Below, piece after piece: positions 23,675 to 42,475 of a stretch of 64,000 nt of DNA. Numbering within the stretch: the stretch's first letter is position 1; every line of letters begins with the position of its first letter. Source of the stretch: Aromatoleum aromaticum EbN1 (lineage in GTDB: Bacteria; Pseudomonadota; Gammaproteobacteria; Burkholderiales; Rhodocyclaceae); assembly GCF_000025965.1 (NCBI RefSeq), contig NC_006513.1:3038001-3102000 (forward strand), read 5' to 3'. The position numbers and the translations under genes were made by a program. The notes under the pieces were generated by a model. That model worked only from the letters and a program-made list of their open reading frames with translations, did not search any database and was not told the DNA's origin.

Positions 23675-24014
23675 TCGGTCTGTCTCCTGACCGGAAAGTG
23701 TTCTGATGATGTTTTCTTTATATCTTTCAGACTAATCCCAAACCCACACGGCGAACAAGCGTTTTCGGTTGCTTCGTGTATCGCGATTCATGCGCGTCGC
23801 CCGGACTGGGACGGCGGTTCGTCGCCGACCGTACAGGTGACTGCCCGTTTCGGCGGGAGAGGGGGGTGAGCGAGGGAATTGCATTTGCCGATTTCGGATA
23901 ACACCCGCTGAAGGCTCGTTCATACAATCCACGAAGCTAGCAGCACAACACGTCATCGAGAACGTGAAGGCAGCAGAAGTACCGGCAACACACACAAAAA
24001 GCGAGGAGACGAAC
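23675..24014. other. Divergent intergenic region between the AraC-type regulator and the DUF1329 gene
   Basis: No gene seen. GG-N10-GC with a TTGC half occurs at 23875-23888 and could be a poor sigma-54-type promoter toward the DUF1329 gene, but the -24 element does not match well. The DUF1329 ribosome site GAGGAG is at about 24002-24007. No clear operator repeat was found. Confidence 0.4.
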
Positions 24015-25394: not shown

Positions 25395-25421
25395 CCGCCG
25401 CCCACTCGAGGGAGAAAACAA

Positions 25422-27194: not shown

Positions 27195-27251
27195 CTGAGA
27201 GCGCCGGCGCGGCGGAAGCTTTCCGCCGTGCCGGCCTGACGGATACCCAAC

Positions 27252-29615
27252 ATGATCGAAACACTGGTGCGTGCGTTGCAGCAGGCGTGCTTCCGGCACC
27301 GCCCGATGATCCTGCTCTCGCTGCTTGGCTTCACCGTGGTGATGGCGGTGTTCGCTTCCCGCCTCGAAATGAGCGCGGGCTTCGACAAGCAGCTGCCGCA
27401 GGACCACGAATACATCCAGACTTTCAACCAGTACCGCGACGTGCTGTTCGGTGCCAACCGCATCATCGTCACCGTCGAGGCGAAGAACGGCGACATCTGG
27501 AACGAGAAGGCGCTGACGAAACTCTACGACGTCACCCAGGCGGTGTTCTTCATGAAGGGCGTCGACCGCCGCACGGTGACGTCCCTGTGGACCCCGAACG
27601 CGCGGGCGGTGCAGATCACCGAGGAGGGCATGCGGGCCGAGGACGTGATCGGCGGCGACGTGACTGTCAAGGCGCTCACCGACGACAACATCGCGGCGAT
27701 CCGCGAGCGCACGATCGTCGGCGGCTTCGTCGGCAGCCTCGTCGCGAACGACTCGTCGTCCGCGATGGTCGTTGCCGAGCTTGCCGATCCCGATCCGCAG
27801 ACGGGTGAACGGCTGAATTACCAGGAATTCAGCGAGCGCCTCGAGCGCGAAATCCGCGACGCCTTCACCGACGACGACATCCGCATCCGCATCATCGGCT
27901 TCGCGAAGCAGATGGGGGATATCTCGGAAGGGGCGACCAGCGTCATCGAGTTCTTCGCACTCGCGTTCCTGCTGACTGCCGCGGCGGTTTACTGGTACAC
28001 GCGCTCGTGGCTGCTGACTTTCCTGCCGCTCGCCTGTTCGCTGGTGTCGGTCGTATGGCAGTTCGGCACGATCACGCTGCTCGGCTTCGGCCTCGACCCG
28101 CTCGCGATCCTGGTGCCGTTCCTGGTGTTCGCGATCGGCGTGTCGCACGGCATCCAGCAGGTGAACTACATCGCCAAGGAAGTCATCAACGGCGCCGACG
28201 GCTACACCGCCGCGAGCCGCAGTTTCACCGGGCTCCTCGTGCCCGGCACGCTTGCGCTGATCACCGCGTTCGTCGGCTTCGCGACGCTGGTGCTGGTGCC
28301 GATCCCGATGATCCGCGAGCTCGCGATCACCGCGTCGGTCGGCGTCGCGTACAAGATCGTCACGAACCTGATCATGCTGCCGGTGGTCGCGAGCTATTTC
28401 CGCTTCGACGACGCTTTCGTGCTGCGCGCAGGCAAGGTCGAGGCGATGCGCAACCGCATGATGTCGACGCTCGGAGTGCATATCGCGAATCCGCGCAATG
28501 CCGCGATCGGCACGCTGGTGTGCGTCGTGCTGATGGGCATCGCAGTATGGCAGAGCCAGGGCCGCCACGTCGGCCACGTGCTGCCGGGCGCCCCGGAACT
28601 GCACGACGATTCGCGCTACAACCAGGACGTCGAAGCAGTCGTCGGGCGCTACGGGCTCGGTCTGGATCTGCTGACGGTGGTCGTCGAATCGCCTGCGGAC
28701 GGGTGCTACCGCCACGACGTCATGAGCCATGTCGACCGCTTGACGTGGTATCTCGCGAACGTGCCCGGGGTGCTGTCGGCGCAGTCGCTGCCGAGCATGA
28801 CGAAGCTCGCCGCCTCCGGAGTCAACGAGGGCAACCCGAAATGGGCCGCGCTGCCGCGCGAGGAGCTGACGCTCGGCGAGGCGGTGCGCCAGGTGCCTGA
28901 AGGCATGCGGCTTTTCAACGCCGACTGCACGCTGCTGCCGGTCAATCTTTATCTGGCGGACCACAAGGCCTCGACGATCGAAGGAGTCGTCGCCGCGGTG
29001 AAGCATTTCCGCACGATGCAGCCGTTCGACGGCATTACCGTGCGACTGGCGAGCGGCAACGCCGGCGTGCAGGCGGCGACGAACGAAGTCGTCGAGCATT
29101 CCGAACTCCCGATGATGCTCTATGTGTACGCGACGATCCTCGTGCTGGTGTTCGCGGTGTATCGCGACTGGCGGGCGATGGTGGCGTGCTGCGTGCCGCT
29201 GACGCTGGCGACCTTCCTCGGCTACTGGTTCATGAAGGAGCTCGACATCGGGCTCACGGTGGCGACCTTGCCGGTGATGGTGCTGGCGGTCGGGATCGGT
29301 GTCGACTACGCGTTCTACATCTACAACCGGCTGCAGATGCACCTCGCGCATGGCGACGACATCGTCACGGCGTTCAAGCAGGCGCTGCGCGAGATCGGCG
29401 TGGCGACGGTATTCACCGCGGTGACGCTGTCGATCGGCGTCGCGACGTGGTCGTTCTCGGCGCTCAAGTTCCAGGCCGACATGGGGATGCTGCTGACCTT
29501 CATGTTCATGATGAACATGATCATGGCGATCACGCTGCTGCCGGCGCTGGCGGTCACGATCGACATGCTGATCCCGCGCCGCGGCCCGGTTCGCGCGCCG
29601 CTGATGGCTCATTGA
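27252..29615 (+). CDS. RND/MMPL superfamily transporter
   Basis: Inner-membrane protein of 787 residues with about 12 helices in two similar halves, each with a large periplasmic loop. It resembles the MMPL/HpnN-like branch of RND proteins that move lipids or sterol-like molecules. GVGVDYAFYIYNRL in the second half and GVSHGIQQVNYI in the first are the paired helix-4 motifs of the family. It lies 57 bases after the DUF1302 gene and is probably cotranscribed. Confidence 0.9.
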   Translation: MIETLVRALQQACFRHRPMILLSLLGFTVVMAVFASRLEMSAGFDKQLPQDHEYIQTFNQYRDVLFGANRIIVTVEAKNGDIWNEKALTKLYDVTQAVFFMKGVDRRTVTSLWTPNARAVQITEEGMRAEDVIGGDVTVKALTDDNIAAIRERTIVGGFVGSLVANDSSSAMVVAELADPDPQTGERLNYQEFSERLEREIRDAFTDDDIRIRIIGFAKQMGDISEGATSVIEFFALAFLLTAAAVYWYTRSWLLTFLPLACSLVSVVWQFGTITLLGFGLDPLAILVPFLVFAIGVSHGIQQVNYIAKEVINGADGYTAASRSFTGLLVPGTLALITAFVGFATLVLVPIPMIRELAITASVGVAYKIVTNLIMLPVVASYFRFDDAFVLRAGKVEAMRNRMMSTLGVHIANPRNAAIGTLVCVVLMGIAVWQSQGRHVGHVLPGAPELHDDSRYNQDVEAVVGRYGLGLDLLTVVVESPADGCYRHDVMSHVDRLTWYLANVPGVLSAQSLPSMTKLAASGVNEGNPKWAALPREELTLGEAVRQVPEGMRLFNADCTLLPVNLYLADHKASTIEGVVAAVKHFRTMQPFDGITVRLASGNAGVQAATNEVVEHSELPMMLYVYATILVLVFAVYRDWRAMVACCVPLTLATFLGYWFMKELDIGLTVATLPVMVLAVGIGVDYAFYIYNRLQMHLAHGDDIVTAFKQALREIGVATVFTAVTLSIGVATWSFSALKFQADMGMLLTFMFMMNMIMAITLLPALAVTIDMLIPRRGPVRAPLMAH

Positions 29616-29625
29616 GGAGATGCCG

Positions 29626-30606
29626 GTGAAAAGATCGAACCGATTCGCGCGCGGCATCATGGCACTGGGCCTTGCGATTGGCGCCCTGGCGTGCGCTGCC
29701 GCCCCGGCCGCCCCGGAGAGCATCACGGCGACCGTGCCGGCGATGAAGGCAAGGCTCGCGGCGAAAGTGCCGCTGACCGGCATCGCCCGCGCCCGCAACG
29801 CGCTCGTCGCGGTCGGCGACTACGGCATGATCGTGCGCTCGACCGACGGCGGCAATATCTGGCAGCAGGCCGAGGCGCCGGTCAGCGCGCTGCTGACGGC
29901 GGTCCATTTCGTCGATGAGCGGCATGGCTGGGCGGTCGGCCACGGTGGCGTGATCCTCGGCAGCGACGATGGCGGCGCGAGCTGGAAGCTGCTCGAGGTG
30001 CTCGACGAGCGCCCGGTGCTGCTGTCGGTGCATTTCCTCGACGCGGAGCGGGGCTACGTGACGGGTGCGTACGGCGTGGCGTTCCGCACCGCCGACGGCG
30101 GGCGCAGCTGGACGCCGATGGCGGTGGGCAGCGGCCAGGATGCCGACTTCCACCTCAACCACCTGTTCTCGGTGCGCGACGGCACGCTGTTCATTGCGGG
30201 CGAAAGCGGCCTGGCGTTCCGCTCGACCGATCGCGGCGCGAGCTGGACGAAGCTCGATACCGGCGTGTCCGGCTCGTTATGGAGCGGATTCGAGCTCGGC
30301 GGCGGCGAAGTCGTGCTGCTCGGCATGAGCGGCAAGGTCATCACGAGCCGGGACAGCGGCGATACCTGGCAGGCGCGCGACACCGGCACCGAGCAGTCCC
30401 TGACTGCCGGCATCACGACGACCGATGGCGGCGTGATCGTCGTCGGGGCGGGTGGCGTGGTGCTGCGCGGCAAAGGCAGCGGCCCGCTGCAGCTGGAAAT
30501 CCGGCCCGACCGGCAGAACCTCGCCGCAGTGATGACCGCCCCGGACAGCGGTGGCGTCGTCGTGGCCGGGCAACTCGGCGTCGAGCGGCTCGTGCCGGCG
30601 CGCTGA
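29626..30606 (+). CDS. Ycf48-like beta-propeller, exported
   Basis: Protein of 326 residues from GTG at 29626 (GAGGAG 6 bases upstream); an ATG at 29620 overlaps that ribosome site. It has a signal peptide (about 1-28). Repeated motifs like DGGNIWQQ, DGGASWKLL, DGGRSWTPM, DRGASWTKL and DSGDTWQAR mark the blades of a Ycf48/BNR-like propeller. It follows the RND gene by 10 bases. DUF1329, DUF1302, RND and Ycf48-like genes recur together, suggesting one envelope-spanning system. Confidence 0.87.
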   Translation: MKRSNRFARGIMALGLAIGALACAAAPAAPESITATVPAMKARLAAKVPLTGIARARNALVAVGDYGMIVRSTDGGNIWQQAEAPVSALLTAVHFVDERHGWAVGHGGVILGSDDGGASWKLLEVLDERPVLLSVHFLDAERGYVTGAYGVAFRTADGGRSWTPMAVGSGQDADFHLNHLFSVRDGTLFIAGESGLAFRSTDRGASWTKLDTGVSGSLWSGFELGGGEVVLLGMSGKVITSRDSGDTWQARDTGTEQSLTAGITTTDGGVIVVGAGGVVLRGKGSGPLQLEIRPDRQNLAAVMTAPDSGGVVVAGQLGVERLVPAR

Positions 30607-30633
30607 TTCAGAACATTCCGTGGAGACCTCCGC

Positions 30634-31116
30634 ATGCTGACAAAACTGATGGCGCTGCTGTCCGGCGAACTCCAGCCCGAAGGACTGGAAACCGGGCCGT
30701 TCGAGCGACGCCATATTGCCGTCGCGGTCCTGCTGCTCGAAGCGATGTACATCGATCACCGCGCCACCGAGCGCGAACACGCCGCCGTCGGCCGCCTGCT
30801 GCACCAGCATTTCGGCCTGACGGAGGACGTCGCACGCCAGCTCGTCGCCATCGCCGACGAACGTTTCGCCGAAGTGCTCGACGACTGGGAGTTCGCCGAA
30901 GCGGTGCGCGCGGGCTTCGACGCGGCCGAGCGGCAAGAGGTGCTGACGATGTTGTGGGAGGTGGCCTATGCGGACGGTGATCTCGTCCGTCTCGAGGACC
31001 GCCTGATGAACCGGCTCGCGAAGCAGCTCGAAATCGGGCCGCAGGCCGCGGATGCGGCACGGGCTGCCGCGGTGGCGCGCGCCGGGCTGCTCGATGATGG
31101 TGCCAGCGGAACCTGA
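30634..31116 (+). CDS. TerB-like protein
   Basis: Cytoplasmic all-helical protein of 160 residues resembling the TerB (tellurite-resistance/DnaJ-linked) fold, with paired acidic helices LEAMYIDHRATEREH and WEVAYADGDLVRLED. GGAGACCTCC precedes the ATG. It lies between the envelope cluster and qhpA; which transcript it belongs to is unclear. TerB-like domains may bind metal ions; the role here is unknown. Confidence 0.75.
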   Translation: MLTKLMALLSGELQPEGLETGPFERRHIAVAVLLLEAMYIDHRATEREHAAVGRLLHQHFGLTEDVARQLVAIADERFAEVLDDWEFAEAVRAGFDAAERQEVLTMLWEVAYADGDLVRLEDRLMNRLAKQLEIGPQAADAARAAAVARAGLLDDGASGT

Positions 31117-31186
31117 CGGGGACGAGAGGCGCAACGATGAGCATTCCTCAAAATGAAGAACCACTTGGGTGGAAACGGAGGGCGAT

Positions 31187-32833
31187 GTGAAGGCGCAAAT
31201 GAGCGAGGCGTTTCGCGAAGGGATTCGCGACGGGATTCGCGACGCAATGCAGTGTGGGGCAAGGATCGCCGGCGTTCTGGCCGTCGCGACGGGCGTGGCC
31301 GGTGTGGCGCACGCGGCGAACGGTGACGTCGCGGCGCAGCAGCTGCTCGAGGCGAAGTGCGGCGCCTGTCACCTCGACAACGGCAAGCTGAACCGCATCT
31401 CGGAGATCCGCAAGAGCCCGGAAGGCTGGGACATGACGGTCGTGCGCATGGGCATCTGGCACAAGGTCGAGCTGACGCCCGGCGAGCGGCAGACGATCGT
31501 CAAGTACCTCGCCGACCGGCAGGGCCTCGCGCCGTCGGAGAGTGCGCCCTACCGTCCGCTCACCGAACGCCAGCCGAACATGCAGGACACTGCGCCCGAC
31601 GAGGAACTCGCGCAGATGTGCGGACGCTGCCACAGCTATGGACGCGTCGCGCTGCAGCGGCGTGACGAAGGCGAATGGCGCAAGCTGATGCACACTCACC
31701 TGGGCCAGTTCCCGAGCGCGGAATATTCCGCGATGGGCCGCGACCGCAACTGGTGGGAGATCGCCCGCGACCAGTTGCCGCCTCGGCTGGCGGCGCTGTA
31801 CCCCAAGGACACGCCGGTCTGGCGCGAATGGCGCAGCGCGCAGCACCGCCCTGCGACGGGGAGCTGGGTCGTCGCTGGCGAGCGCCCGGGCTGGGGGGCG
31901 TACACGGGCACGATGACGGCGCGTGCCGCCGGGCCGGATCGCTACGAAGTGAGCTACGAGCTGCGCTTTGGCGTCGGCAACACGGTGCGCGGGCAGGGCG
32001 ACGCGATCGTCTACACCGGGTACGAATGGCGCGGCTCGGCGAAGCTCGGCAACGAGGACACGCGTTCGATCTTCGCGCTGAGCCCGGATGGTTCCCGCAT
32101 GTCGGGACGGTGGTTCCTCAAGGGGGCCGACGAAATCGGGGCCCGCTTCGAAGCGGTGCGCGCGGACAACGCGGTGAAGAACGAACTCGTCGCAATTACG
32201 CCGCGGATGCTGCGCAACGACGCGACGACGGACTTGACGCTCGCCGGCGTCGCGCTCGATGCGAATGTCGACTTCGGCCCCGGCATCGAAGTCGTCGAAT
32301 GGCTCGGCACATCGCCCGGCGGGCTGAAAGTGCGCGTCCGCGTCGCGGTCGATGCGCCGGAAGGAGTGCGTACGGTTGTCGTCGGCGGCCGCGAGTCCGC
32401 GCAGACCGTCGCGGTGTTCAATCGCTTCGACACGGTGCGCGTCGAGCCGGCGTTCGCGGTCGCGCGGCTCGGCGGCGGCACCGTCGCACCGATGAGCGCG
32501 CAGTTCGACGCCATCGCCTTCCTCAACGGCGCGGACGGCAAACCGGGCACCGACGACGATATCCGCCTCGGCAGCGTGCCCGCGACATGGTCGACCGAGC
32601 CGTTCGACGAGCGGGCGCGTCACGACGAGGACGCACGCTACGCGGGTCACATGGCGTCGCACGGCCAGTTCGTGCCTTCCTTTGCCGGCCCCAACCCGCT
32701 GCGACGCGGCGGCATCAACAACGTCGGCAACCTGTCGGTCATCGCGACGGTTGCCGACGGCGACCAGACCCTTAACGGCAAAGGCCAGCTGATGGTGGTT
32801 GCGCAGCGCTGGAACCCGACACCGCTGCGCTGA
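31187..32833 (+). CDS. qhpA: Quinohemoprotein amine dehydrogenase alpha subunit (QhpA)
   Basis: Periplasmic dihaem subunit, about 548 residues, that accepts electrons from the CTQ cofactor of the gamma subunit during oxidation of primary amines. A signal sequence (ending near VAHAANG) precedes two haem c sites, CGACH and CGRCH. Three beta-rich domains follow. GTG at 31187 with GGAGGG upstream is preferred; GTG 31169 or ATG 31199 are alternatives. It is first of the order A-D-C-B-F-E. Confidence 0.93.
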   Translation: MKAQMSEAFREGIRDGIRDAMQCGARIAGVLAVATGVAGVAHAANGDVAAQQLLEAKCGACHLDNGKLNRISEIRKSPEGWDMTVVRMGIWHKVELTPGERQTIVKYLADRQGLAPSESAPYRPLTERQPNMQDTAPDEELAQMCGRCHSYGRVALQRRDEGEWRKLMHTHLGQFPSAEYSAMGRDRNWWEIARDQLPPRLAALYPKDTPVWREWRSAQHRPATGSWVVAGERPGWGAYTGTMTARAAGPDRYEVSYELRFGVGNTVRGQGDAIVYTGYEWRGSAKLGNEDTRSIFALSPDGSRMSGRWFLKGADEIGARFEAVRADNAVKNELVAITPRMLRNDATTDLTLAGVALDANVDFGPGIEVVEWLGTSPGGLKVRVRVAVDAPEGVRTVVVGGRESAQTVAVFNRFDTVRVEPAFAVARLGGGTVAPMSAQFDAIAFLNGADGKPGTDDDIRLGSVPATWSTEPFDERARHDEDARYAGHMASHGQFVPSFAGPNPLRRGGINNVGNLSVIATVADGDQTLNGKGQLMVVAQRWNPTPLR

Positions 32834-32845
32834 AGGAGACATCCC

Positions 32846-34279
32846 GTGACGACATTACAGGTGCAGGCGCACAACTATCGTTCGATCCGCTCCGGCGGCC
32901 GGCATGTCCTGCTGCATGTGCCGACGACGTCGATCTTCGAGCTCGATCCGGCCGCGACCGACCTGCTCGGGCTGTTCGAGTCGACGCCCGCGGTCGCCGC
33001 CGACGACATCCAGGCGCGCTTTGACGGGCGCTATTCGCCGGGCGAGCTATGCGACAGCCTCAGCGATTTCATCGAGCTGGGGATCGTCGCACCGCAGCCG
33101 AAGCACTACGAGATCCCGCCGCGGCTGGTCGAGCGCTCGCCGCTGAAGACGCTCGTGCTGACGCTGACGACCGGCTGCAACCTCGGCTGCAGCTACTGCT
33201 ATCGCGAGGACCTGACTTCGCCGAAGAACTCATCGGTGATGGACTACCAGACCGGCACGCGCTCGATCGACCTGCTGCTCGCCGAAGCGAGCGAGAACGA
33301 GCGTGTCGCGGTGGTGTTCTTCGGCGGCGAGCCGCTGACGCGCATCGCGGTGATCCGCGACCTCGTCGAATACGCCGAACAGAAGGCCGCGGCCGCCGGC
33401 AAGGACGTCGAGTTCTCGCTGACGACCAACGCGACGCTGCTCACCGACGACGTCATCGATTTCCTCGATGCGCACCGCTTCGGCATCACCGTCAGCATCG
33501 ACGGCGGCGAAGCGCAGCACGACCGGCATCGCCGCACGATCGCCGGCGGCGGCACTTACAAGACCGTCGCGATGCGCGTGCAGCGCCTGCTCGAACGCTA
33601 CAAGTCGCGCCCGGTCGGCGCCCGCGTGACGCTCGCCTCGGGCAACATCGATGTCGCCGGCATCTACCGGCACCTGCACGACGAGCTCGGCTTCTTCGAA
33701 GTCGGCTTCGCGCCGGCGACCGCGGGACCGGATTCCCCGGTCGGGCTGTCGCCGCAGGAGCTCGACGAAGTGTTCGCGGCGATGCAGGCGCTCGGCCGCG
33801 AATACGTCGGCGAAGCCAAGCGCGGCCGGCGCCACGGCTTCGGCAACATGCACCAGCTGATGACCGACCTGTGGATGGGTACGCGCAAGGTGCTGCCGTG
33901 CGGCGCCGGCGTCGGCCTGCTCGCGGTCGGGACGACCGGCAAGATCTCGCTGTGCCACCGCTTCACCGGCTCCGACTCCGACCTCGCCGGTTTCGGCGAC
34001 GTGACGAGCGGCATCGCGCGCGAGTCGCTGTCCGGTTTCGTCAGCGCCGCGCAGAACCCGCACGCCGCGTGCCGCACGTGCCCGGCGCGAAGCCTGTGCG
34101 CGGGCGGCTGCTACCACGAATCGTATTCCCGCTACGGCGACCCGTTCCTGCCGACTTTCGAGTACTGCGAGCAGATCCGTGCCTGGATCGCGTTCGGCCT
34201 CGAAGCCTTCGGCGAGATCGCGATCGCCAATCCGGCGTATTTCAACGCCTCCAACGCACAAAGGAGTGCCAGACAATGA
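32846..34279 (+). CDS. qhpD: QHNDH maturation radical-SAM/SPASM enzyme (QhpD)
   Basis: Cytoplasmic enzyme of 477 residues that forms the Cys-to-Asp/Glu thioether crosslinks in the gamma-subunit precursor. The N-terminal 95 residues look like a peptide-binding domain. The radical-SAM cluster is CNLGCSYC (C111, C115, C118). The C-terminal SPASM-type cysteines include LPCGAG, SLCHRF and [17 protein letters not shown] start. Its stop overlaps the qhpC start (ATGA), coupling enzyme and substrate. Confidence 0.95.
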
Positions 34280-34596
34280 AACGCTTGCGAGCCCTCAACC
34301 ACAAGGCACAGCTGCTCGAACACGCCGTGCAGGAAGGCCACAGCGAGGAAGTGCAGCTGATGAGCAGCGTCGTCGGCTGCACGACGACTTTCGATCCGGG
34401 CTGGGAAATCGACGCTTTCGGCGGACTGGCCAGCCTGTGCCAGCCGATGGAGGCGGATCTCTACGGCTGCACCGATCCATGCTGGTGGCCGGCGCAGCTC
34501 GCCGACGGCCTGAACAGCGCACGCGACTGGACCGACGGCAAGAACTCGGCGCTGCGCGACTGGCGCGAGCTGCAGACCCTGTTCCCGGGAGATTGA
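34276..34596 (+). CDS. qhpC: QHNDH gamma subunit precursor, CTQ-bearing (QhpC)
   Basis: Small catalytic subunit of 106 residues: a 28-residue leader followed by the mature peptide. Numbering from residue 29, all cofactor residues of the characterised enzymes are present. C37 and W43 would form the cysteine tryptophylquinone. The three thioether pairs are C7-E16, C27-D33 and C41-D49. The Trp must be doubly oxygenated during maturation. The substrate peptide is complete although the usual oxygenase gene is not seen (see the U32 pair). Confidence 0.95.
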
Positions 34597-34601
34597 GCAT
34601 C

Positions 34602-35675
34602 ATGAAGAAACTGCTCGTTGCGCTGTGCTGCGTTGCGGCATCGGCGTCCGCGGTCGCCGCGGAATACCTGCTGACGGTGACGCGGCCGAACACCCTGCAC
34701 GTCATCGACCCGGCCAAGCGCGAAGTGGTGCGTTCGATCGCGATCCCCGGTGACGGCGTGCCGGGCACGATCACGGTGCCGAAAGACGGCAAAGTTGCCT
34801 ACGTGCTGACCAACCGCATGGAAAGCGTCGTCGGCATCGACCTCGACAGCGGCAACCAGGTGTTCCGCGCCGACTTCTCGAGTCCCGGCAGGCGCGTCAA
34901 GGGCTTCTTTGCCGCCGCTGTCAGCGAGGACGGGCGCGAGCTGTACGTGCACCAGGCGCCGGTCATGCTCGGGCGCTCCGAGTACCAGGTCGAGGACACT
35001 TACATCGCGGTGTTCGACACCGCCGACGGCGTGGGCGCGAAACCTCGCCGCACATTCCCGGCGCCGCGCCGCATCAGCCTGCTGGCGCCGACCGGCAACA
35101 AGGATCACCTGCTCGCGCTCGGCTGGGACATGTACCTGTTCAACACCCGCAGCGGGACGATCGAGAAGACTTTCCCGATCCGCCACTGGGACCGTCCCGG
35201 CCTGGGCGAGCCGGACGTCCTGGCGATGTGGGGAACGTTCGAGCAGGCGCGCGCGTTGAGCACGCCGTACTTCGTCCCCAAGACCGATGTAGCGCCTGAT
35301 TCGGCCGAGGCGTTCAAGGCCGGCATCGCGGTGTTCGACCTCGACGCCGAGACGCTGAAGACGATCGAGTTCGAAAATGCGCAGACGGCGATGTTCTCGT
35401 CGGTGATCAATCCGGCCGCTCGCAACGAAGCGTTCCTCGTCATGAACCAGCTGTCGAAAGTCGATACCGAAACCGGCAAGCTGATCAAGCGCGTCGACCT
35501 CGAGCAGACGTTCTACGCCGTCAATATCTCGGGCGACGGCAAGGAAGTCTATATCGGCGGGGCGCTCGACAAGATTGCCATCCACGACGCCGAAACGCTC
35601 GAGAAAACCGGCGAGATCATGATGCCGGGCGGCGCGGACCAGTCGATCGGATGGTTGCGGGTCGTCAAGCGCTGA
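34602..35675 (+). CDS. qhpB: QHNDH beta subunit (QhpB)
   Basis: Periplasmic seven-bladed beta-propeller subunit of 357 residues. A signal peptide (MKKLLVALCC..., cleavage near AVAAEY) is followed by YVTN-like repeats such as NTLHVIDPAKREVV and AIHDAETLEK. It forms part of the alpha-beta-gamma amine dehydrogenase. It lies 5 bases after qhpC. Confidence 0.93.
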   Translation: MKKLLVALCCVAASASAVAAEYLLTVTRPNTLHVIDPAKREVVRSIAIPGDGVPGTITVPKDGKVAYVLTNRMESVVGIDLDSGNQVFRADFSSPGRRVKGFFAAAVSEDGRELYVHQAPVMLGRSEYQVEDTYIAVFDTADGVGAKPRRTFPAPRRISLLAPTGNKDHLLALGWDMYLFNTRSGTIEKTFPIRHWDRPGLGEPDVLAMWGTFEQARALSTPYFVPKTDVAPDSAEAFKAGIAVFDLDAETLKTIEFENAQTAMFSSVINPAARNEAFLVMNQLSKVDTETGKLIKRVDLEQTFYAVNISGDGKEVYIGGALDKIAIHDAETLEKTGEIMMPGGADQSIGWLRVVKR

Positions 35676-35688
35676 CGAGCGTCTCCGC

Positions 35689-37407
35689 GTGATCGCGCTG
35701 CGAAAAAAAGGATCGCTGCCGCTGCAGGCGCTCGCATGGGCGTGGCCCACCGTGCGCGGGCGCGCGGGCGCCGCAGCCGGCATCGTCGTGCTGTCCTTCC
35801 TCGCGTCGGGCGCCGCGTTGCTGCCGCCGTATCTCACCCAGCGCCTCGTCGATGACGGCATCGTCGGCGGGCGCATGGACGTGGTGCTGCAGCTATGCGG
35901 CGCGTTCCTCGCGCTGCTCGTCGCCGGCGTCGCGGTCGAAGCCGTTTCCCGCCTCGCATATCTGAAACTGTCCGCGCACGTGCTGTTCGGCCTGCGCGAA
36001 CAGATTTACCGCCACCTCCAGACGCTTGCGCCGACGTACTACGCGCGCACTCGCGGCGGCGAGATCCTGTCGCGGCTCGACGGTGATGTCGCCGAGGTGC
36101 AGCGTTTTGCGATCGACGCGCCGATGGGTCTCCTCAACGCGGCGTTCTCGCTGGTCGTCGCGCTGGCGCTGATGCTGTCGCTGAGCCCGCTGCTGACGGC
36201 GCTGGTGTTCGCGCTCGTGCCGCTGCATGTCGCGGCGCTGCTCGGGTCGCGGGGATGGCTCGAGCGCAGCGCCCAGGCGGTGCGGCAGCAGAGCGCGGCG
36301 ATGTCGAGTTTTTTTGTCGAATCGCTGCGCGCGATGAAGTTCATCCAGGCGACGAATGCCGGCGCGCGGCAGGAGGCCGAGCTGCGCGCGCATCATGGCG
36401 ACTATTTCGCCGCGCTGCGGCGCTCGCAGCTCGCTTCGCTCGGCGCCGGGGGCGTGCAGCGCATCCTGTCCGGGCTCGGCGTGCTGCTGGTGTTCGCGGT
36501 CGGCGGCAGCCTCGCGGCGGCGGGCGAGCTGACGGTCGGCGTCGTCGTCGCGTTCATCGCCTACACGACTCGCGCAGCCGGTCCGCTGCAGACCGCGGCG
36601 GGCGTTTTCATGGGCTGGCAGCGGGCGAAAGTCAGCCTGCAGCGCATCCGCGAACTGGCCGCTGAATTGCCGACGGTCACGTCGCCGGCGCAGCCGGTCG
36701 CGCTCGCGCAGCCGGTGCGCGGCGACCTCCGCCTCGTCGACGTGTATTTCGGCTACGGCGAGACGCGCGTGCTCGACGGCGCGTCGCTCGACATCCCGGC
36801 TGGCCGCAAGCTCGCCTTGGTCGGCGCGTCCGGCGCCGGCAAATCGACGCTGATCGATTTGCTGCAGCGTCATTACGATCCGGCCGCCGGGCACATCCTG
36901 CTCGACGGCGTGCGGCTCGATCGGCTCGACCTTGCCGAGTTGCGGCGGCGCGTCGTGGTCGTCGACCAGGACCCGGTGCTGATGCCCGGCAGCGTGCGCG
37001 ACAACCTGCGCTTCGTTGCGCCGGATGCCGATGAGGCGGCGCTGCTGCGCGCGCTCGACCTCGCCGGTCTCGCGCACTTCGCCCACGCCCGCGGGCTGGA
37101 CAAGGAGGTCGGTGCATCGGCATCGGCGCTGTCGCGCGGCGAACGGCTGCGCATCGCGCTCGCCCGCGCGATCCTGCAGGACCCGGCGGTGCTGATCCTC
37201 GATGAGACGACCTCCGGGCTCGATCTGCCCGTGGCCCAGGCGATTGTCATCGCGGTCGACCGCGTGTTCGCCGGCCGCACCCGCATCGTCATCACGCACA
37301 ACCTCGCGTCCGTCGGAGAGCTCGACGGCGTCGTCGAACTGCGTGACGGCATGCTGGTCGAGCAGCCGCCGGTGCGAGCGCCGGCGCCGCTGCTGAGGGC
37401 CGTATGA
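35689..37407 (+). CDS. qhpF: ABC exporter for the QHNDH gamma subunit (QhpF)
   Basis: Fused permease-ATPase of 572 residues: six membrane helices (to about 300), then an ATPase domain with Walker A GASGAGKST, an ABC signature close to SALSRGERLR and Walker B VLILDETTSG. It is proposed to move the crosslinked QhpC to the periplasm. GTG start. Its stop overlaps the qhpE ATG. Confidence 0.9.
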   Translation: MIALRKKGSLPLQALAWAWPTVRGRAGAAAGIVVLSFLASGAALLPPYLTQRLVDDGIVGGRMDVVLQLCGAFLALLVAGVAVEAVSRLAYLKLSAHVLFGLREQIYRHLQTLAPTYYARTRGGEILSRLDGDVAEVQRFAIDAPMGLLNAAFSLVVALALMLSLSPLLTALVFALVPLHVAALLGSRGWLERSAQAVRQQSAAMSSFFVESLRAMKFIQATNAGARQEAELRAHHGDYFAALRRSQLASLGAGGVQRILSGLGVLLVFAVGGSLAAAGELTVGVVVAFIAYTTRAAGPLQTAAGVFMGWQRAKVSLQRIRELAAELPTVTSPAQPVALAQPVRGDLRLVDVYFGYGETRVLDGASLDIPAGRKLALVGASGAGKSTLIDLLQRHYDPAAGHILLDGVRLDRLDLAELRRRVVVVDQDPVLMPGSVRDNLRFVAPDADEAALLRALDLAGLAHFAHARGLDKEVGASASALSRGERLRIALARAILQDPAVLILDETTSGLDLPVAQAIVIAVDRVFAGRTRIVITHNLASVGELDGVVELRDGMLVEQPPVRAPAPLLRAV

Positions 37408-38132
37408 AACTGCGCGTCGGCATCGTCGATGGCGGTTTTGTGCGCGTAGCGCCCGCAGCGCTGCACGCAGCTGCGCAGTTCGCCAGCGGCGAGTTCGATG
37501 GCGGCGAGTTCGATGGCGCCAAGTCCGATGGGGTCGTGCGCTGCGAAGCGCCGCACGGACCTGCGCTGCCGCACGGCGAATGCGTCGCCGCGCTGGTCCT
37601 CGACGCGGCGCCGACCGCTTGCCTGCTCGACGCACGCGTCGCCACGGTCGGCCGGCCCGCGACGCCGCGCCTCGTCGCCGCCGCGATCGACTGGTGCGTC
37701 GCCGAAGGGGCTCGTGTCGTCAACCTGAGCCTCGGCCTCGCCGACGATCGTCGCGTGCTGCGCGAAGCTTGCGAGCGGGCCGTGGGGCAGGGCGTGCTGC
37801 TCGTCGCCGCAGCGCCGGCACGCGGTTCGCCAGTCTATCCGGCGCATTATCCCGGCGTGCTCGCGGTGAGCGGTGATGCGCGCTGCGCTCCTGACCAATG
37901 GTCGCGGCTCGATCCGGCGAGCGCAGCCGGCGCCGCGTGGGGAACCTGTCCCGACGCGCCCGGCGGACGCCCCGGTGGCGCGAGCATGGCTGCAGCGCGC
38001 TTTGCCGGCATCGTCGCGAATCACCTCGTGCAGCACCCCGACGCGGGCCTTCGCGGGCTCGTCGACCACCTCGCGGCCTTTGCCATCTGGCACGGGCGCG
38101 AAAACAGAAGAATCGCGGAGACCGATTCATGA
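37404..38132 (+). CDS. qhpE: Subtilisin-like leader peptidase (QhpE)
   Basis: Protein of 242 residues of the S8 family that removes the QhpC leader. The triad is visible: D9 (GIVDGG), H57 (LPHGEC) and S194 (GGASMAAARFAG). The segment that usually holds the oxyanion-hole Asn (VAAAGN) reads LVAAAPARGS, so that Asn is not evident. A short tandem repeat, GEFDG twice, occurs near residue 30. It has no signal peptide. Overlaps qhpF upstream and the U32 gene downstream. Confidence 0.88.
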   Translation: MKLRVGIVDGGFVRVAPAALHAAAQFASGEFDGGEFDGAKSDGVVRCEAPHGPALPHGECVAALVLDAAPTACLLDARVATVGRPATPRLVAAAIDWCVAEGARVVNLSLGLADDRRVLREACERAVGQGVLLVAAAPARGSPVYPAHYPGVLAVSGDARCAPDQWSRLDPASAAGAAWGTCPDAPGGRPGGASMAAARFAGIVANHLVQHPDAGLRGLVDHLAAFAIWHGRENRRIAETDS

Positions 38133-39046
38133 CATCGACCTTGCCCCCAGCGCCGACCCCTTCCATTTCGCCAAAACCTCCTGCGGGCCCGATCGAGCTC
38201 GGCTTCGCGCTCGTCGATGAGCGCGAGCTCGCCGCGTTCGTGCGCCTTGGGCGTGTCACGCGCGACGACTATCTCGAACAGCTCGGCGACGCGCGACAGT
38301 GCGTGACGCTGCCCGACGACGCCGAGCCGACGCATTTCTTCCTCGGCAGCGAGTTCTGCGAGCACCTGCTGCCGAGTGTGGAAGCGATCGATCGCGCCGT
38401 GGCCCTGTGCGAGCGCTGGGGAGTCACGTTCGGCCTCGTCACGCCGATCGCCTGTGACAGCCTGTTCGAGCCGCTTCGCGCCGCGTTCGCGCGCCTGCCT
38501 GCAGGCGCCGAAGTGACCGTCAACGACTGGGGCGTCGCGCGCGTCGTGCAGCGCGAATTCCCCGATCTGCGGCCGGTCGCCGGGCGGCTGCTCGGGAAGA
38601 TGCTGAAGGACCCGCGGCTGCCGTCCGCGACGTGGGCGCGCATGTACCCGAACGGCCTGCGCGCCGGCCCGTTCCGCGAAATCCTCGACAATCTCGGCAT
38701 CGGCCGCCTGGAACTCGACTTCCCGCCGTTCGGCGCTGCCGACATGTATGCCGGCATCGATTTCCCGGTCGGCGTACGCGCGCCGTATGGCTACATCGCG
38801 AAGGGCCGCATCTGCAAGCTCGGTTCGCTCGCGCTCGATGTGCCGGAAAAATTCTCGCCGGGCCACCGGTGCCGCCGCGAATGCCTCGGCTTCTCCGAAG
38901 TCGGTGCCCGGCCCGGCACGCGCGAGCTGCAGACGTCGCAGCGCGGCAACACGATGTATTACCGCCACGCCCCCGGCATGACCGCGGCGATCGCCGAGGC
39001 GGTGGCGAATGGCTGGGTCAGCCGTATCGTCCTGTCGGGAGCCTGA
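38129..39046 (+). CDS. U32-family protein, UbiV-like, coupled to qhpE
   Basis: Protein of 305 residues. Its ATG overlaps the qhpE stop (ATGA), so it belongs to the qhp operon. The pattern follows UbiV: a first Cys in FFLGSEFC (C77) aligns with the UbiV segment LGE.VC. The remaining Cys are C229, C248 and C252 (C-x18-C-x3-C), together a probable 4Fe-4S site. UbiV works with UbiU in O2-independent ubiquinone hydroxylation. This gene is unlikely to be ubiV itself, as its partner and operon differ. Role inferred: one half of a hydroxylase for QhpC tryptophan. Confidence 0.8.
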   Translation: MTSTLPPAPTPSISPKPPAGPIELGFALVDERELAAFVRLGRVTRDDYLEQLGDARQCVTLPDDAEPTHFFLGSEFCEHLLPSVEAIDRAVALCERWGVTFGLVTPIACDSLFEPLRAAFARLPAGAEVTVNDWGVARVVQREFPDLRPVAGRLLGKMLKDPRLPSATWARMYPNGLRAGPFREILDNLGIGRLELDFPPFGAADMYAGIDFPVGVRAPYGYIAKGRICKLGSLALDVPEKFSPGHRCRRECLGFSEVGARPGTRELQTSQRGNTMYYRHAPGMTAAIAEAVANGWVSRIVLSGA

Positions 39047-39049
39047 AAT

Positions 39050-39120
39050 GAAGCCCCCACGCTCGCTTTGTTCGCTGCCCCCCGAGGGGGTTGAGGCCTC
39101 CCTTGGGGGTGGCCCTACGG
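39050..39120. repeat. Betaproteobacterial GC-rich intergenic repeat
   Basis: The 70-base spacer between the two U32 genes has the look of a dispersed extragenic repeat of betaproteobacteria: a CCCCCACGCTCGC start, then CTGCCCCCCGAGGGGG (a palindromic core about 39075-39090), then CTTGGGGGTGGCCC. It can fold into hairpins and may attenuate or stabilise mRNA. The ribosome site of the next gene lies at its right border. Confidence 0.65.
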
Positions 39121-39127
39121 GAGTCCT

Positions 39128-40162
39128 ATGAAAATCACTGCACCGATCAGCACGCCTGCCGAAGTCGAACCGCTGGTGCGGGCTGGCGCGCGCGAACTGT
39201 ATTGCGGCGTCGTGCCGCCGGAGTGGATCCGGCGTTTCAACACTTCGGGCGTCAATCGCCGCGTGTTCGGCAACCTCAACGGCTATGCCGACCTCGAGCG
39301 CGTCATCGACAACGCGCATGCGCTCGACGCCGAAGTGTTCCTCGTCCTCAACGCGCAGCAATACGGCGAGCAGCACCTCGACGCGCTGACCGAAATCGCC
39401 GCCCACTTTCGCAGCATCGGCGGTAACGCCGCGATCGTCGCCGATATCTCGCTGATCGCCTCGCTCGCGGCGAACGTCCCGGATCTCGCGATCCACGTCA
39501 GTTCGGTCGCGACCTGCCGCAACGTCGAATCGGCGCGCTTTTTCGCGCAGCTCGGCGCGCGCCGCATCATCCTGCCGCGCGACGTCACCGTCGCCGAGAT
39601 CTCCGCGATCGCGACCGAACTCCCCGAGCTCGACATCGAAGCGTTCGTGCTCAACGACGGCTGCGTGTTCGAGGAGGGCACGTGCCACACCGTGCATCTG
39701 CCGATGAACAAGGGCGGCCCGATCTGCATCGACAACTACCAGTTCGAATACCGCGCGGCGAATGGCGAAGCACCTGCCGAACGGGCGCTGCGGCGGCTGG
39801 AAAAGAACGACCAGGACTACAAGCGCTGGCTGTGGTATCGCTTCGGCAACGGTTTTTCGGTCGCGCCGAACGGCTACCCGTGGGGCCCGTGCGGCCTGTG
39901 CGCGATGCCGGCGATGCACGCGGCGGGCGTGCATTCGGTGAAGATCGCCGGGCGCGAAGGGGCGAGCGAGCGCAAGGTGAAGAGCGTCGAACTCGTTCAT
40001 GAGGTGTTGCGCCGCATCGAGGACGGCGAACCGGAGTCGAAAGTCCGCGAATGCGCGGTCGGACTGCGCGACGCGCCGAGCCACTGCGCGAGCGGTTACA
40101 TGTGCTATTACCCCGAGAAGCGCAGCCGGCCGGAGATTGCCGCTCACGCACGGCCGGGCTGA
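39128..40162 (+). CDS. U32-family protein, UbiU-like, partner of the UbiV-like protein
   Basis: Protein of 344 residues with a TIM-barrel-like U32 fold. The U32 signature region has C179, C186 and C200 (C-x6-C-x13-C) followed by GPCGLC (C255, C258), comparable to the Cys set of UbiU, which binds 4Fe-4S. N-terminal KITAPISTPAEVEPLVRAGARELYCG is typical. Despite the family name, studied members (UbiU/V, RlhA, TrhP) act in hydroxylation rather than proteolysis. GGGAG precedes the ATG. It is 81 bases after its partner. Confidence 0.85.
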   Translation: MKITAPISTPAEVEPLVRAGARELYCGVVPPEWIRRFNTSGVNRRVFGNLNGYADLERVIDNAHALDAEVFLVLNAQQYGEQHLDALTEIAAHFRSIGGNAAIVADISLIASLAANVPDLAIHVSSVATCRNVESARFFAQLGARRIILPRDVTVAEISAIATELPELDIEAFVLNDGCVFEEGTCHTVHLPMNKGGPICIDNYQFEYRAANGEAPAERALRRLEKNDQDYKRWLWYRFGNGFSVAPNGYPWGPCGLCAMPAMHAAGVHSVKIAGREGASERKVKSVELVHEVLRRIEDGEPESKVRECAVGLRDAPSHCASGYMCYYPEKRSRPEIAAHARPG

Positions 40163-40543
40163 AGTCGCCGCCGGATCAATCCGTCGGATCGCCGATTATG
40201 TAACTATATGTTTCATCTCCTGTTTAGGGTCGTGAAACAGACTGCATAACGCGTAGGCGTAATGCCGGCTGAAGTCTGGCAGCCGGGGCCGCTGCACAAG
40301 CCGCCCTGCGCGAACGTCATCGTGCTGGCCAGGCGCGCGAAAGTTGCTCGCGGATGGCTGCTGGGAAAGAATGCTTCACCGCACAAAAATACTGCCTGTG
40401 CGGTAACAATAATCGAGGGTGCAGCGGGACGGTCACAACCGTTCGCTGCGCTCGAAGCTGAACCCGGCGGTTCGCGCCGCCACATTGCAGGCCCTGCCCG
40501 GACCCTCCGACGGTCCTATTCGGGGCTGAATCCCGGATCGTCG
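40163..40543. other. Intergenic region with two inverted repeats, before the FtsH-like gene
   Basis: No gene seen. Two dyads stand out: TGTTTCA (40209-40215) with TGAAACA (40233-40239), 17 bases apart; and ACCGCACA (40378-40385) with TGTGCGGT (40397-40404), 11 bases apart. AATAAT at about 40408-40413 could be part of a promoter. The first resembles an operator for a dimeric regulator; neither regulator can be named. Confidence 0.45.
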
Positions 40544-42475
40544 ATGAAGCTATTCTCTGCGTGGCCCCGCTGGGTCCAAATCCTTTTTTCCGTCGCCCTT
40601 TTTACCTCCGTCGTCGCCGGCTGGATCGCGTTCGACTACCACAGCCACGCGCCGAGCACGGCTGGCAAGACCGAACTCGCACGCGAGTTCGAGTCCGGCC
40701 CCCACATGTGGCTGGACCGTCCGCTCGACGCATCGGTTTTCGCGGACAAGCTTCGACAGGGCGAGATCGCCGCGGTCGGGGTCGACGGCCAGCGCGTGCT
40801 GGCGACGACCCGCAGCGGTGAGCAATTCAGCACCGAGCTCGTCGCGGGCGAGGAAGGACTGCTGGCCGGCCTCGAAACCGCGAGCCGGGAGCAGGGTTTC
40901 GCGCTGACCCGCATCAGCGTGGACGCGCGCACGGTCGGCGAACGCATCGTCGCCAGCACGGGCAGCGTGCTCGAGCGACTCTTCACGCTGTTGACGGTCG
41001 CCGCAATGGTGGTGCTCGGCGTCTATCTGCTGCGGCAAGGTGCAATGGGCGGCGGCGCGAAAGCCAGGCTCGCCGAGAAGCCGCAGACGAGTTTCGTCGA
41101 CGTGGTCGGCGCGTCGGATGCGAAAACCTCGCTGCAGCAGGTGACTGCCTTCATGCGCGACCCGCAGAAATATCTCGCGCTCGGGGCCAAGCCGCCGCGC
41201 GGCGTGCTTCTCGAAGGCCCGCCGGGAACCGGAAAAACCTTGCTCGCGCGCGCACTCGCCGGCGAATGCAAGGCGAACTTCATCGCCGTCGATGGCTCGC
41301 ATTTTTCGAGCATGTTCTACGGCCAGGGCATCGCGAAAGTCCGCGAACTCTTCGCGACCGCCCGCAAGAATGCGCCCTGTATCATTTTCATCGACGAGTT
41401 CGACGGCATCGGCAAGCGCGCGAGTGGTGCGAAAGTCGAGGGCGGGCAGTCCGAAGAGAACCGCATCATCAACAAGCTGCTCGTCGAGATGGACGGTTTC
41501 TCGACCTCCGACAACATCATCGTCATCGGCGCGACGAACCACGTCGGCAACGTCGACGAAGCGCTGCGCCGCCCCGGTCGTTTCGACCTCGTCGCGCGCG
41601 TCAACCTGCCCACCGTGCACGATCGCCGCGAACTGTTCGAGCTGTGTCTCGCCCGCGTCCGGGCCGAGTCCGGGCAGATCGACGCGGAGGCGCTCGCGCG
41701 CGCGAGCAGCGGCCTGTCGCACGCCGACATCACGAACATCGTCAATCGCGCGACGGTACTGGCGGCGGAGTCGGGCAGCGCTTCGGTGACCCAGGCTCAC
41801 CTGCACCGCGCGCTCGAAACGCACCAGCTCGGCGGCGAAGTCTCGAGCCTGAAGGCCGCGTTCACCGAAACGCACCGCGAGCGCATTGCGGTGCACGAAG
41901 CGGGCCACGCGCTGGTCGCCCATGCGCTGAAAGCGGGCCGCGTCGAGCGCATCAGCATCGAGCCGCGCGGCCAGGCGCTCGGCGTGACCTTCGTCAGCCG
42001 CGAGGACGAAGTGCCGCTGTATGGCGAGCGCGAACTGAAGGCGCGGCTGTCGATGCTGCTGGCCGGGCGCGAGGCCGAACTGATGAATTACGGCAACACG
42101 ACGTCGGGCGCGGCCGATGACCTCAAGCGGGCCTCGGAACTGGCAATCGAAATGGTCAGCTCGATGGGGTTTTCGAGCCAGTTCGGGCTGCTGAGCCTCG
42201 CCGGTGTGCCCGATGCGCTGGTCGGACCACATATCCAGGAGCGGGCGCTGGGCGAAGCGCGCGCGATGCTCGAAGCGGCCCAGCGCGCGTGCCGCGAGAC
42301 GCTCGAACGCCATTGTCACGTGCTGCACGCGGTGACCGCAGCGCTGCTGAAGGACGACACGGTTTCCGGCGCGTTGCTGCGCGAGATGTTGCCGGCGCAT
42401 GATTTCCACGCCGACGCGGCGAACGACGCGGCAGCACTGCGTGTTGCGATGGAAACGGTTCCCGGGCCGGTGTAA
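40544..42475 (+). CDS. FtsH-like membrane AAA+ zinc metalloprotease
   Basis: Protein of 643 residues from ATG 40544. Two membrane helices (about 8-30 and 147-165) flank a periplasmic domain of about 110 residues. The AAA+ domain has Walker A GPPGTGKT (225-232), Walker B IIFIDEFDGIG and the arginine-finger segment RRPGRFD. The peptidase site is HEAGH (H451, E452, H455). The linker and periplasmic part diverge from housekeeping FtsH and there is no adjacent rrmJ/folP, so this is probably an accessory paralogue. Upstream open frame is not counted. Confidence 0.9.
   Translation: MKLFSAWPRWVQILFSVALFTSVVAGWIAFDYHSHAPSTAGKTELAREFESGPHMWLDRPLDASVFADKLRQGEIAAVGVDGQRVLATTRSGEQFSTELVAGEEGLLAGLETASREQGFALTRISVDARTVGERIVASTGSVLERLFTLLTVAAMVVLGVYLLRQGAMGGGAKARLAEKPQTSFVDVVGASDAKTSLQQVTAFMRDPQKYLALGAKPPRGVLLEGPPGTGKTLLARALAGECKANFIAVDGSHFSSMFYGQGIAKVRELFATARKNAPCIIFIDEFDGIGKRASGAKVEGGQSEENRIINKLLVEMDGFSTSDNIIVIGATNHVGNVDEALRRPGRFDLVARVNLPTVHDRRELFELCLARVRAESGQIDAEALARASSGLSHADITNIVNRATVLAAESGSASVTQAHLHRALETHQLGGEVSSLKAAFTETHRERIAVHEAGHALVAHALKAGRVERISIEPRGQALGVTFVSREDEVPLYGERELKARLSMLLAGREAELMNYGNTTSGAADDLKRASELAIEMVSSMGFSSQFGLLSLAGVPDALVGPHIQERALGEARAMLEAAQRACRETLERHCHVLHAVTAALLKDDTVSGALLREMLPAHDFHADAANDAAALRVAMETVPGPV

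Follow-up and report, generated by a model that had tools for sequence, protein, structure and literature searches.

A U32 protein pair in quinohemoprotein amine dehydrogenase operons as a candidate for O2-independent tryptophan hydroxylation

The oxygens of protein-derived tryptophylquinone cofactors are generally taken to require O2. The 64,000-nucleotide stretch of Aromatoleum aromaticum EbN1 analyzed here (NC_006513.1, positions 3,038,001 to 3,102,000; hereafter the window) carries a quinohemoprotein amine dehydrogenase (QHNDH) operon that includes two adjacent genes of the U32 type, here named U32a and U32b, and raises the question of what hydroxylates the tryptophan from which its cysteine tryptophylquinone (CTQ) cofactor is formed. 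QhpG, the flavin adenine dinucleotide (FAD)- and O2-dependent peptidyl tryptophan dihydroxylase (PDB 7ctq), draws both oxygens from O2, since both added atoms were 16-O when 16-O2 was supplied in 18-O water (PMC7876137, accessible text), and is for that reason not expected to act in a strict anaerobe. No QhpG-like gene was found among the operon genes of the window. Any genome with qhp genes and an intact QhpC precursor but without QhpG would seemingly still require the two oxygens on Trp71 of QhpC. By analogy with UbiU-UbiV of Escherichia coli, we propose, at a probability of roughly 80%, that U32a-U32b acts as an O2-independent peptidyl-tryptophan hydroxylase for the QHNDH gamma subunit. The proposal is carried by operon membership, pairing, cysteine conservation, predicted fold, genome complementarity between the pair and QhpG, and an unchanged substrate. 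A literature search, for which most subscription papers lay outside the scope, returned no paper tying U32 proteins to a quinohemoprotein or tryptophylquinone, and the literature searched names no catalyst for anaerobic CTQ formation. Schmitt et al. are said to have reported in 2019, for two such enzymes in A. aromaticum EbN1, that CTQ maturation is independent of O2; if so, the phenomenon is known and the new part is the candidate catalyst, for which U32a-U32b is a specific proposal.

The operon and its substrate

The window genome comprises three contigs (4,727,255 bases in total, one contig of 4,296,230 bases). The qhp genes were called with NCBIfam equivalog models at curated cut-offs, and further domains with Pfam. 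The genes qhpA, qhpB, qhpC, qhpD and qhpE all scored above their cut-offs and, together with the exporter gene qhpF (assigned by Pfam and position), form one strand-consistent cluster, confirming the complete qhpA-D-C-B-F-E maturation operon of the preliminary description of this locus:

31169..32833, + strand: qhpA, diheme alpha subunit of quinohemoprotein amine dehydrogenase (TIGR03908, 795 bits, cut-off 274)
32846..34279, + strand: qhpD, radical S-adenosylmethionine (SAM) thioether-forming maturase (TIGR03906, 784 bits, cut-off 453)
34276..34596, + strand: qhpC, gamma subunit precursor (NF037958, 162 bits, cut-off 50)
34602..35675, + strand: qhpB, beta subunit (TIGR03907, 525 bits, cut-off 223)
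35689..37407, + strand: qhpF, ABC exporter (PF00664 and PF00005, operon position)
37404..38132, + strand: qhpE, leader-cleaving subtilisin-like protease (NF049966, 227 bits, cut-off 165)
38129..39046, + strand: U32a, UbiV-like partner (cysteines C77, C229, C248 and C252; model fold and hhalign)
39128..40162, + strand: U32b, UbiU-like partner (PF01136, 153 bits; cysteines C179, C186, C200, C255, C258, C320 and C326)

The coupling of qhpE to U32a, also described earlier, is real: the stop of qhpE (38132) and the start of U32a (38129) share an ATGA. The U32a start was set at 38129 because a longer frame from 37898 would run through qhpE.

The substrate is conserved where the pair occurs. In the QhpC precursor, C65 and W71 correspond to mature Cys37 and Trp43, the CTQ precursor residues, and D61 to mature Asp33, following the 28-residue leader and the mature numbering Trp43/Cys37/Asp33 given in the accessible text of PMC7876137. 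These three residues and the crosslink residues C35, E44, C55, C69 and D77 were identical in 58/58 QhpC sequences (57 distinct) from loci with the pair.

The U32a-U32b pair

The two genes occur as a unit. A GTDB contig scan by U32b alignment (two conserved U32b peptides) yielded 102 relatives, and the best 80 loci, representing 77 genomes (L076, L080 and L100 share genomes with other scan loci), were analyzed. In 77 of the 79 loci in which both were read, U32b lies next to U32a on the same strand and no more than 200 bases away; the remaining two have gaps of 208 and 290 bases. A contig edge truncates the 80th locus. The cysteine positions quoted in the preliminary description were exact and are conserved across the relatives found. 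In alignments of 84 U32a (83 distinct) and 85 U32b (84 distinct) sequences, one locus being entered twice, U32a C77 is kept in 82/82 and C229, C248 and C252 in 83/83, and all seven U32b cysteines listed above are kept in 85/85. Four conserved cluster-type cysteines are present, as in U32 O2-independent hydroxylases, and by analogy with UbiU and UbiV they may act as ligands (PMC6747719); the UbiV 4Fe-4S ligands are C39, C180, C193 and C197, and those of UbiU C169, C176, C193 and C232 (accessible text of the same source).

U32b matches the U32 family PF01136, and no Pfam or NCBIfam model matched U32a. Profile comparison with hhalign relates U32b to UbiU (E 4e-30) and TrhP (5e-25) and U32a to U32b (3e-7), and the control comparison of QhpG with the two proteins gave no profile match (E 0.3 and 0.8). 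Sequence searches of the PDB with U32b and U32a returned chance-level matches alone. AlphaFold models of both (mean predicted local distance difference test (pLDDT) 85) have the solved U32 protein 5d88 as their top PDB structure match (E 6.5e-8 and 5.2e-4; template modelling (TM)-score by target 0.57 and 0.49). The pair matches none of the flavin-binding families in Pfam and NCBIfam. In a quick tree of 53 rows, built from U32b and reference U32 proteins with U32a outside it, the 37 U32b rows group as a single clade (support 100) that excludes UbiU, TrhP and RlhA, with a program warning that long branches meet; for the U32b rows, this is the placement foreseen in the preliminary description. 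Pairwise identity distances of the pair correlate with those of QhpD and QhpA (r 0.93-0.95, 47 loci) and of QhpC (r 0.88 and 0.89, 47 loci), as members of a true operon would give, and shared ancestry alone would give likewise.

Distribution of the pair and of QhpG

The 80-locus scan is silent on how often qhpC genomes lack the pair, because its loci were found by U32b. Genomes were also drawn blind to both genes, with qhpC sought by NF037958 at the level of order (399 genomes), class (369) and phylum (398) in overlapping draws. Leaving out the window's own genome and G348 (a partial qhpC below cut-off, with a stop), these draws gave 10 qhpC genomes, representing 8 genera since G810, G814 and G892 share one. 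Two of them encode U32b, G317 (530 bits) and G727 (417 bits, with the pair ~31 kb away from qhpC), and all other U32 matches scored at most 76 bits. QhpG was found in the other eight (493-654 bits) and not in G317 and G727 (E 1e-15). QhpG and the pair are thus fully complementary in 10/10 proteobacterial qhpC genomes (Fisher p 0.02; three of the eight QhpG genomes share a genus). A further draw covered the Geobacter class and was centred on Geobacter argillaceus, a known pair holder, with genomes picked by qhpC alone; qhpC was found in 14 of 277 genomes, nine shared with the pair scan and five new. All 14 carry U32b (365-407 bits) on the contig of qhpC, ~2 kb away from it, and no QhpG candidate in them passes the cut-off (best 58 bits vs 240). 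Across the draws, none of the 24 qhpC genomes had neither QhpG nor the pair. In a plasmid collection, 25 of the 26 qhpC records also contain QhpG at E 1e-20 or better (27 records reach that level for QhpG, two of them lacking a qhpC match), and none of the 40 U32b matches listed of 197 was family-level (the best-ranked is 29% identical).

A second U32b-like protein lies away from qhp in five Geobacter-class genomes (157-209 bits to the U32b model) and is perhaps another subfamily with another target:

G1183:C461:5614-6567, second U32b-like protein
G1185:C162:11790-12743, second U32b-like protein
G1116:C89:31510-32091, second U32b-like protein
G1250:C1:1730248-1730829, second U32b-like protein
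G1255:C83:12038-12619, second U32b-like protein

Among the 77 pair genomes of the scan, 70 carry qhp genes: qhpC lies inside 55 scan loci (54 genomes) and elsewhere in 15 of the 22 searched genomes without qhpC at the pair locus, and L093 holds qhpB, qhpF and qhpE at a contig end. At least four different arrangements link the pair to qhp genes in alpha-, beta- and gammaproteobacteria and the Geobacter class; the Geobacter class, G317 and related metagenome-assembled genomes (MAGs) have the order A-D-C-B-U32a-U32b-F-E. The search for QhpG came up empty in 55 of the 77 genomes, 48 of which carry qhp genes; three of the 55 (G1130, G1133 and G1139) were covered by the QhpG search that also served the Geobacter-class draw. 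Fourteen of the 48 are not labelled as MAGs, namely seven Aromatoleum or Azoarcus, Herminiimonas sp. CN, Terasakiella sp. PR1, Magnetospirillum sp. SS-4, Paramagnetospirillum caucaseum, Sedimenticola selenatireducens, Motiliproteus sp. SC1-56 and Geobacter argillaceus. The QhpG search scored the 26 best candidates per genome, and most QhpG assignments rest on the A3 profile, not all on NF049967. In G1128 and G1181 QhpG consists of halves on separate contigs (both G1128 halves each below the cut-off), and the QhpG-matching stretches of G1135 (253 bits), G1164 and G1167 contain stop signs. Weak QhpG-like matches in G1127 (L162) and G1129 (L165) were discarded as nearer to CmlS, and one in G1138 (L163) by score alone, without a scan. 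Annotated names can mislead here: the Leisingera QhpG (L036 5707-7065) is named tryptophan 7-halogenase and the Paracoccus QhpG (L033 5562-6800) NAD(P)-binding protein, the latter matching the QhpG crystal structure 7ctq.

The preliminary description held that QhpG was missing, which is correct for the window operon and was rejected for the whole genome. A second, complete qhp operon (L013, C1:1297000-1316500) has the order qhpA-D-C-B-F-E, a CcmF/NrfE-like heme lyase gene, QhpG and an AraC-type regulator, with U32a-U32b and an aldehyde dehydrogenase-like gene (named from its sequence) on the opposite strand. Its QhpG (C1:1298544-1299863; NF049967, 404 bits vs cut-off 240) is the sole QhpG over the cut-off in the genome, and its U32a and U32b are 39% and 51% identical to those of the window. 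The heme lyase-like gene, which here separates qhpE from qhpG, is also found close to pairs of Thauera and of alphaproteobacteria.

Several results weigh against the proposed role. The window's own genome holds QhpG and U32 pairs together, as do 22 of the 77 pair genomes, and many of the QhpG absences come from MAGs. QhpG and the pair stand in one cluster in L050, L070, L079 and L087, and a divergent QhpG does so in L095-L097 and L099 (306-312 bits vs cut-off 240 for L095, L097 and L099; L096 lay outside that scan). The 26th plasmid qhpC record, from Novosphingobium sp. RL4 (L037), has a very divergent qhp operon, with no clear QhpG and no pair on the plasmid. No qhpC was found in 7 of the 77 pair genomes, comprising three proteobacterial MAGs and four Bacillota, all four anaerobes (L103, L107, L111 and L115; Halanaerobiales, Acididesulfobacillus, Desulfotruncus and Clostridia). 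Because these four show no qhpC, the pair family may have another substrate in Bacillota; their scanned neighbours gave no clear substrate (beta-helix protein, DUF6385, DUF2225, DAHP synthase, FtsH-like, MatE). In a test on 4-5 phylogenetically independent pairs QhpG never moved with the U32 pair (median p 0.5), and with too few pairs this test was set aside as support. No FNR-type box was found in 24000-38200 of the window (at most 1 mismatch) or in three intergenic stretches (at most 2 or 3 mismatches); such a box as a sign of anaerobic control was rejected, as none lies upstream of either gene set in the genome. Finally, the hhalign match of U32a to UbiV is weak (E 0.0012, probability 20%, or 28% in global mode) and appeared with deeper alignments, shallow ones giving no match. 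This weak alignment sets C77, C229, C248 and C252 exactly on C39, C180, C193 and C197 of UbiV, and the putative kinship of the two proteins draws on these weak profile scores, the cysteine register and the fold.

The sole QhpG-like gene of L037 is weak, divergent and short (331 amino acids called, 31% identity).

The mutual exclusion that the preliminary description anticipated therefore stands as complementarity in the draws (10/10, and 14/14 in the Geobacter class) and is false in its strict form, since both occur in 22 of the 77 scan genomes and in that of the window. Its further claim that the pair replaces QhpG fits Geobacter relatives and many denitrifiers; for genomes with both, the fitting picture is a pair that works alongside QhpG, perhaps at a different level of O2. 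The main point of the preliminary description is supported: three of its own checks, on co-occurrence, the U32b tree and separate UbiU and UbiV genes, turned out mostly as it predicted.

Proposed role, alternatives and neighbouring genes

In the pathway that we envisage, QhpD would form three thioether crosslinks in QhpC, after which a U32a-U32b heterodimer with one 4Fe-4S cluster per half would act on the crosslinked QhpC while QhpD holds it, as with QhpG. The heterodimer would put two oxygens on the indole of Trp71 (mature Trp43), with an organic molecule, by analogy prephenate, as the donor rather than O2. QhpE would then cut the leader, export would proceed via QhpF, and the Cys65 crosslink and oxidation would finish CTQ. 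The reaction, the 4Fe-4S clusters, the oxygen donor and the U32a-U32b complex are the parts that we infer. A review gives prephenate as the oxygen donor of anaerobic ubiquinone synthesis, and possibly of further U32 oxidases, by a chemistry described as unproved (PMC11574389, accessible text). The pair would be the sole such catalyst of strict anaerobes and of many denitrifiers, and in bacteria with both QhpG and the pair the two may serve different O2 levels, like UbiUV and UbiIHF for ubiquinone. UbiUV can stand in for the O2-dependent UbiIHF and hydroxylates without O2 even in air (PMC10470549, accessible text).

Rival readings give the pair other roles. It might serve CTQ maturation without being a hydroxylase, for instance in the final Cys-Trp crosslink or in electron supply, with the oxygens coming from water via QhpD or the c-type hemes of QhpA. 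These two proteins occur wherever the operon is complete, and heme-based hydroxylation is known for tryptophan tryptophylquinone (TTQ) through MauG (PMC7876137, accessible text); however, QhpD and QhpA do not explain a dispensable QhpG because genomes that use QhpG have them just as well. What varies against QhpG is the pair, and characterized U32 enzymes of its kind are linked with hydroxylation in the accessible texts of PMC6747719, PMC11574389 and PMC10470549, so that a non-hydroxylating role appears unlikely. Much less probable still are peptidases for the QhpC leader or for surplus subunits, as the Pfam name peptidase U32 and the adjacency to qhpE would suggest: this locus and most operon-bearing loci already have QhpE as leader protease, the conserved residues are cluster-type cysteines, and peptidase activity does not account for complementarity with a monooxygenase.

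Geobacter relatives use menaquinone, which counts against a duplicated or relocated UbiU/UbiV that would make ubiquinone anaerobically to provide an electron acceptor, a reading that we consider barely credible. U32b does resemble UbiU in its hhalign profile, and the cysteine spacing is similar, with CX6C in both (PMC6747719, accessible text). Yet ordinary UbiU (559 bits, cut-off 440), UbiV (382, cut-off 275) and TrhP (721, cut-off 534) sit at other places in the genome, so the window pair is an extra one; U32b scores 84.5 bits against the UbiU equivalog NF047963 (cut-off 440), U32a has no match to the UbiV equivalog NF047965 (cut-off 275), and U32b falls into its separate clade. The identification of the pair as the organism's ordinary ubiU/ubiV, which would have counted against the preliminary description, was rejected for these separate genes and that clade. 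Equally hard to credit is an association that stems solely from a common anaerobic habitat and inheritance of the operon, the pair being functionally unconnected with CTQ. The distances of the pair and QhpD do correlate like those of a co-inherited block, and independent transitions are few, but the pair is tied to qhp in several gene orders across proteobacterial classes and the Geobacter class, and every qhpC genome in the draws had QhpG or the pair.

Hydroxylation of QhpC by U32a-U32b would have precedents that match it in part. Like UbiU-UbiV of E. coli, the pair consists of a UbiU-like and a UbiV-like gene, both of the U32 type and side by side, and O2-free hydroxylation of an aromatic ring is proposed for it by analogy. 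The order of cysteines is CXnCX18CX3C in U32a vs CXnCX12CX3C in UbiV, and CX6CX13C followed by a further cysteine in U32b vs CX6CX16CX38C in UbiU. In contrast to UbiU-UbiV, U32a and U32b score far below the cut-offs, U32b forms a separate clade, the gene order is reversed (UbiV-like first), and the pair is linked to the gene of a peptide substrate, lying within the qhp operons of Geobacter relatives; its substrate would be a protein tryptophan. QhpG shares a like operon, the same inferred job and the same QhpC residue, but requires O2 and flavin, whereas the pair has no flavin-binding family match and no profile match to QhpG. TrhP and RlhA, which hydroxylate tRNA and rRNA, are U32 proteins with O2-independent hydroxylation and a four-cysteine motif, yet they are single proteins with RNA substrates in clades separate from U32b. 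LodB, GoxB and MauG likewise add oxygen to a precursor tryptophan, but they are flavin or heme enzymes and their substrate is already mono-hydroxylated (PMC7876137, accessible text).

We regard it as probable, if a little less so than the hydroxylase role itself, that the pair represents a new U32 branch, a dedicated heterodimer for the O2-independent double hydroxylation of tryptophan inside a protein. We know of no other U32 hydroxylase with a protein substrate. If the proposal holds, the pair would fill the catalytic gap in anaerobic CTQ synthesis, serving strict anaerobes like the Geobacter relatives and being kept beside QhpG by others, and it would explain a quinoprotein amine dehydrogenase in strict anaerobes. 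The range of U32 hydroxylases, with small molecules and RNA as substrates, would then widen to include proteins, the Bacillota pairs that lack qhpC would hint at additional targets, whether proteins or small molecules, and the pair could become a tool for tryptophan hydroxylation without oxygen.

Directly 3' of U32b lies an FtsH-like gene encoding AAA and M41 protease domains (window 40262-42475); an FtsH-like gene also adjoins the qhp-free pair of L111, on the opposite strand. Upstream of qhpA (window 25422-31116) are genes for a DUF1302 protein, an MMPL/RND exporter, a YCF48-like protein and TerB. The distant qhp operon of G317 (L017 54-4992) is also preceded by TerB and by look-alikes of the other three, and because of this similar block the upstream genes may have to do with the amine or aromatic substrate.

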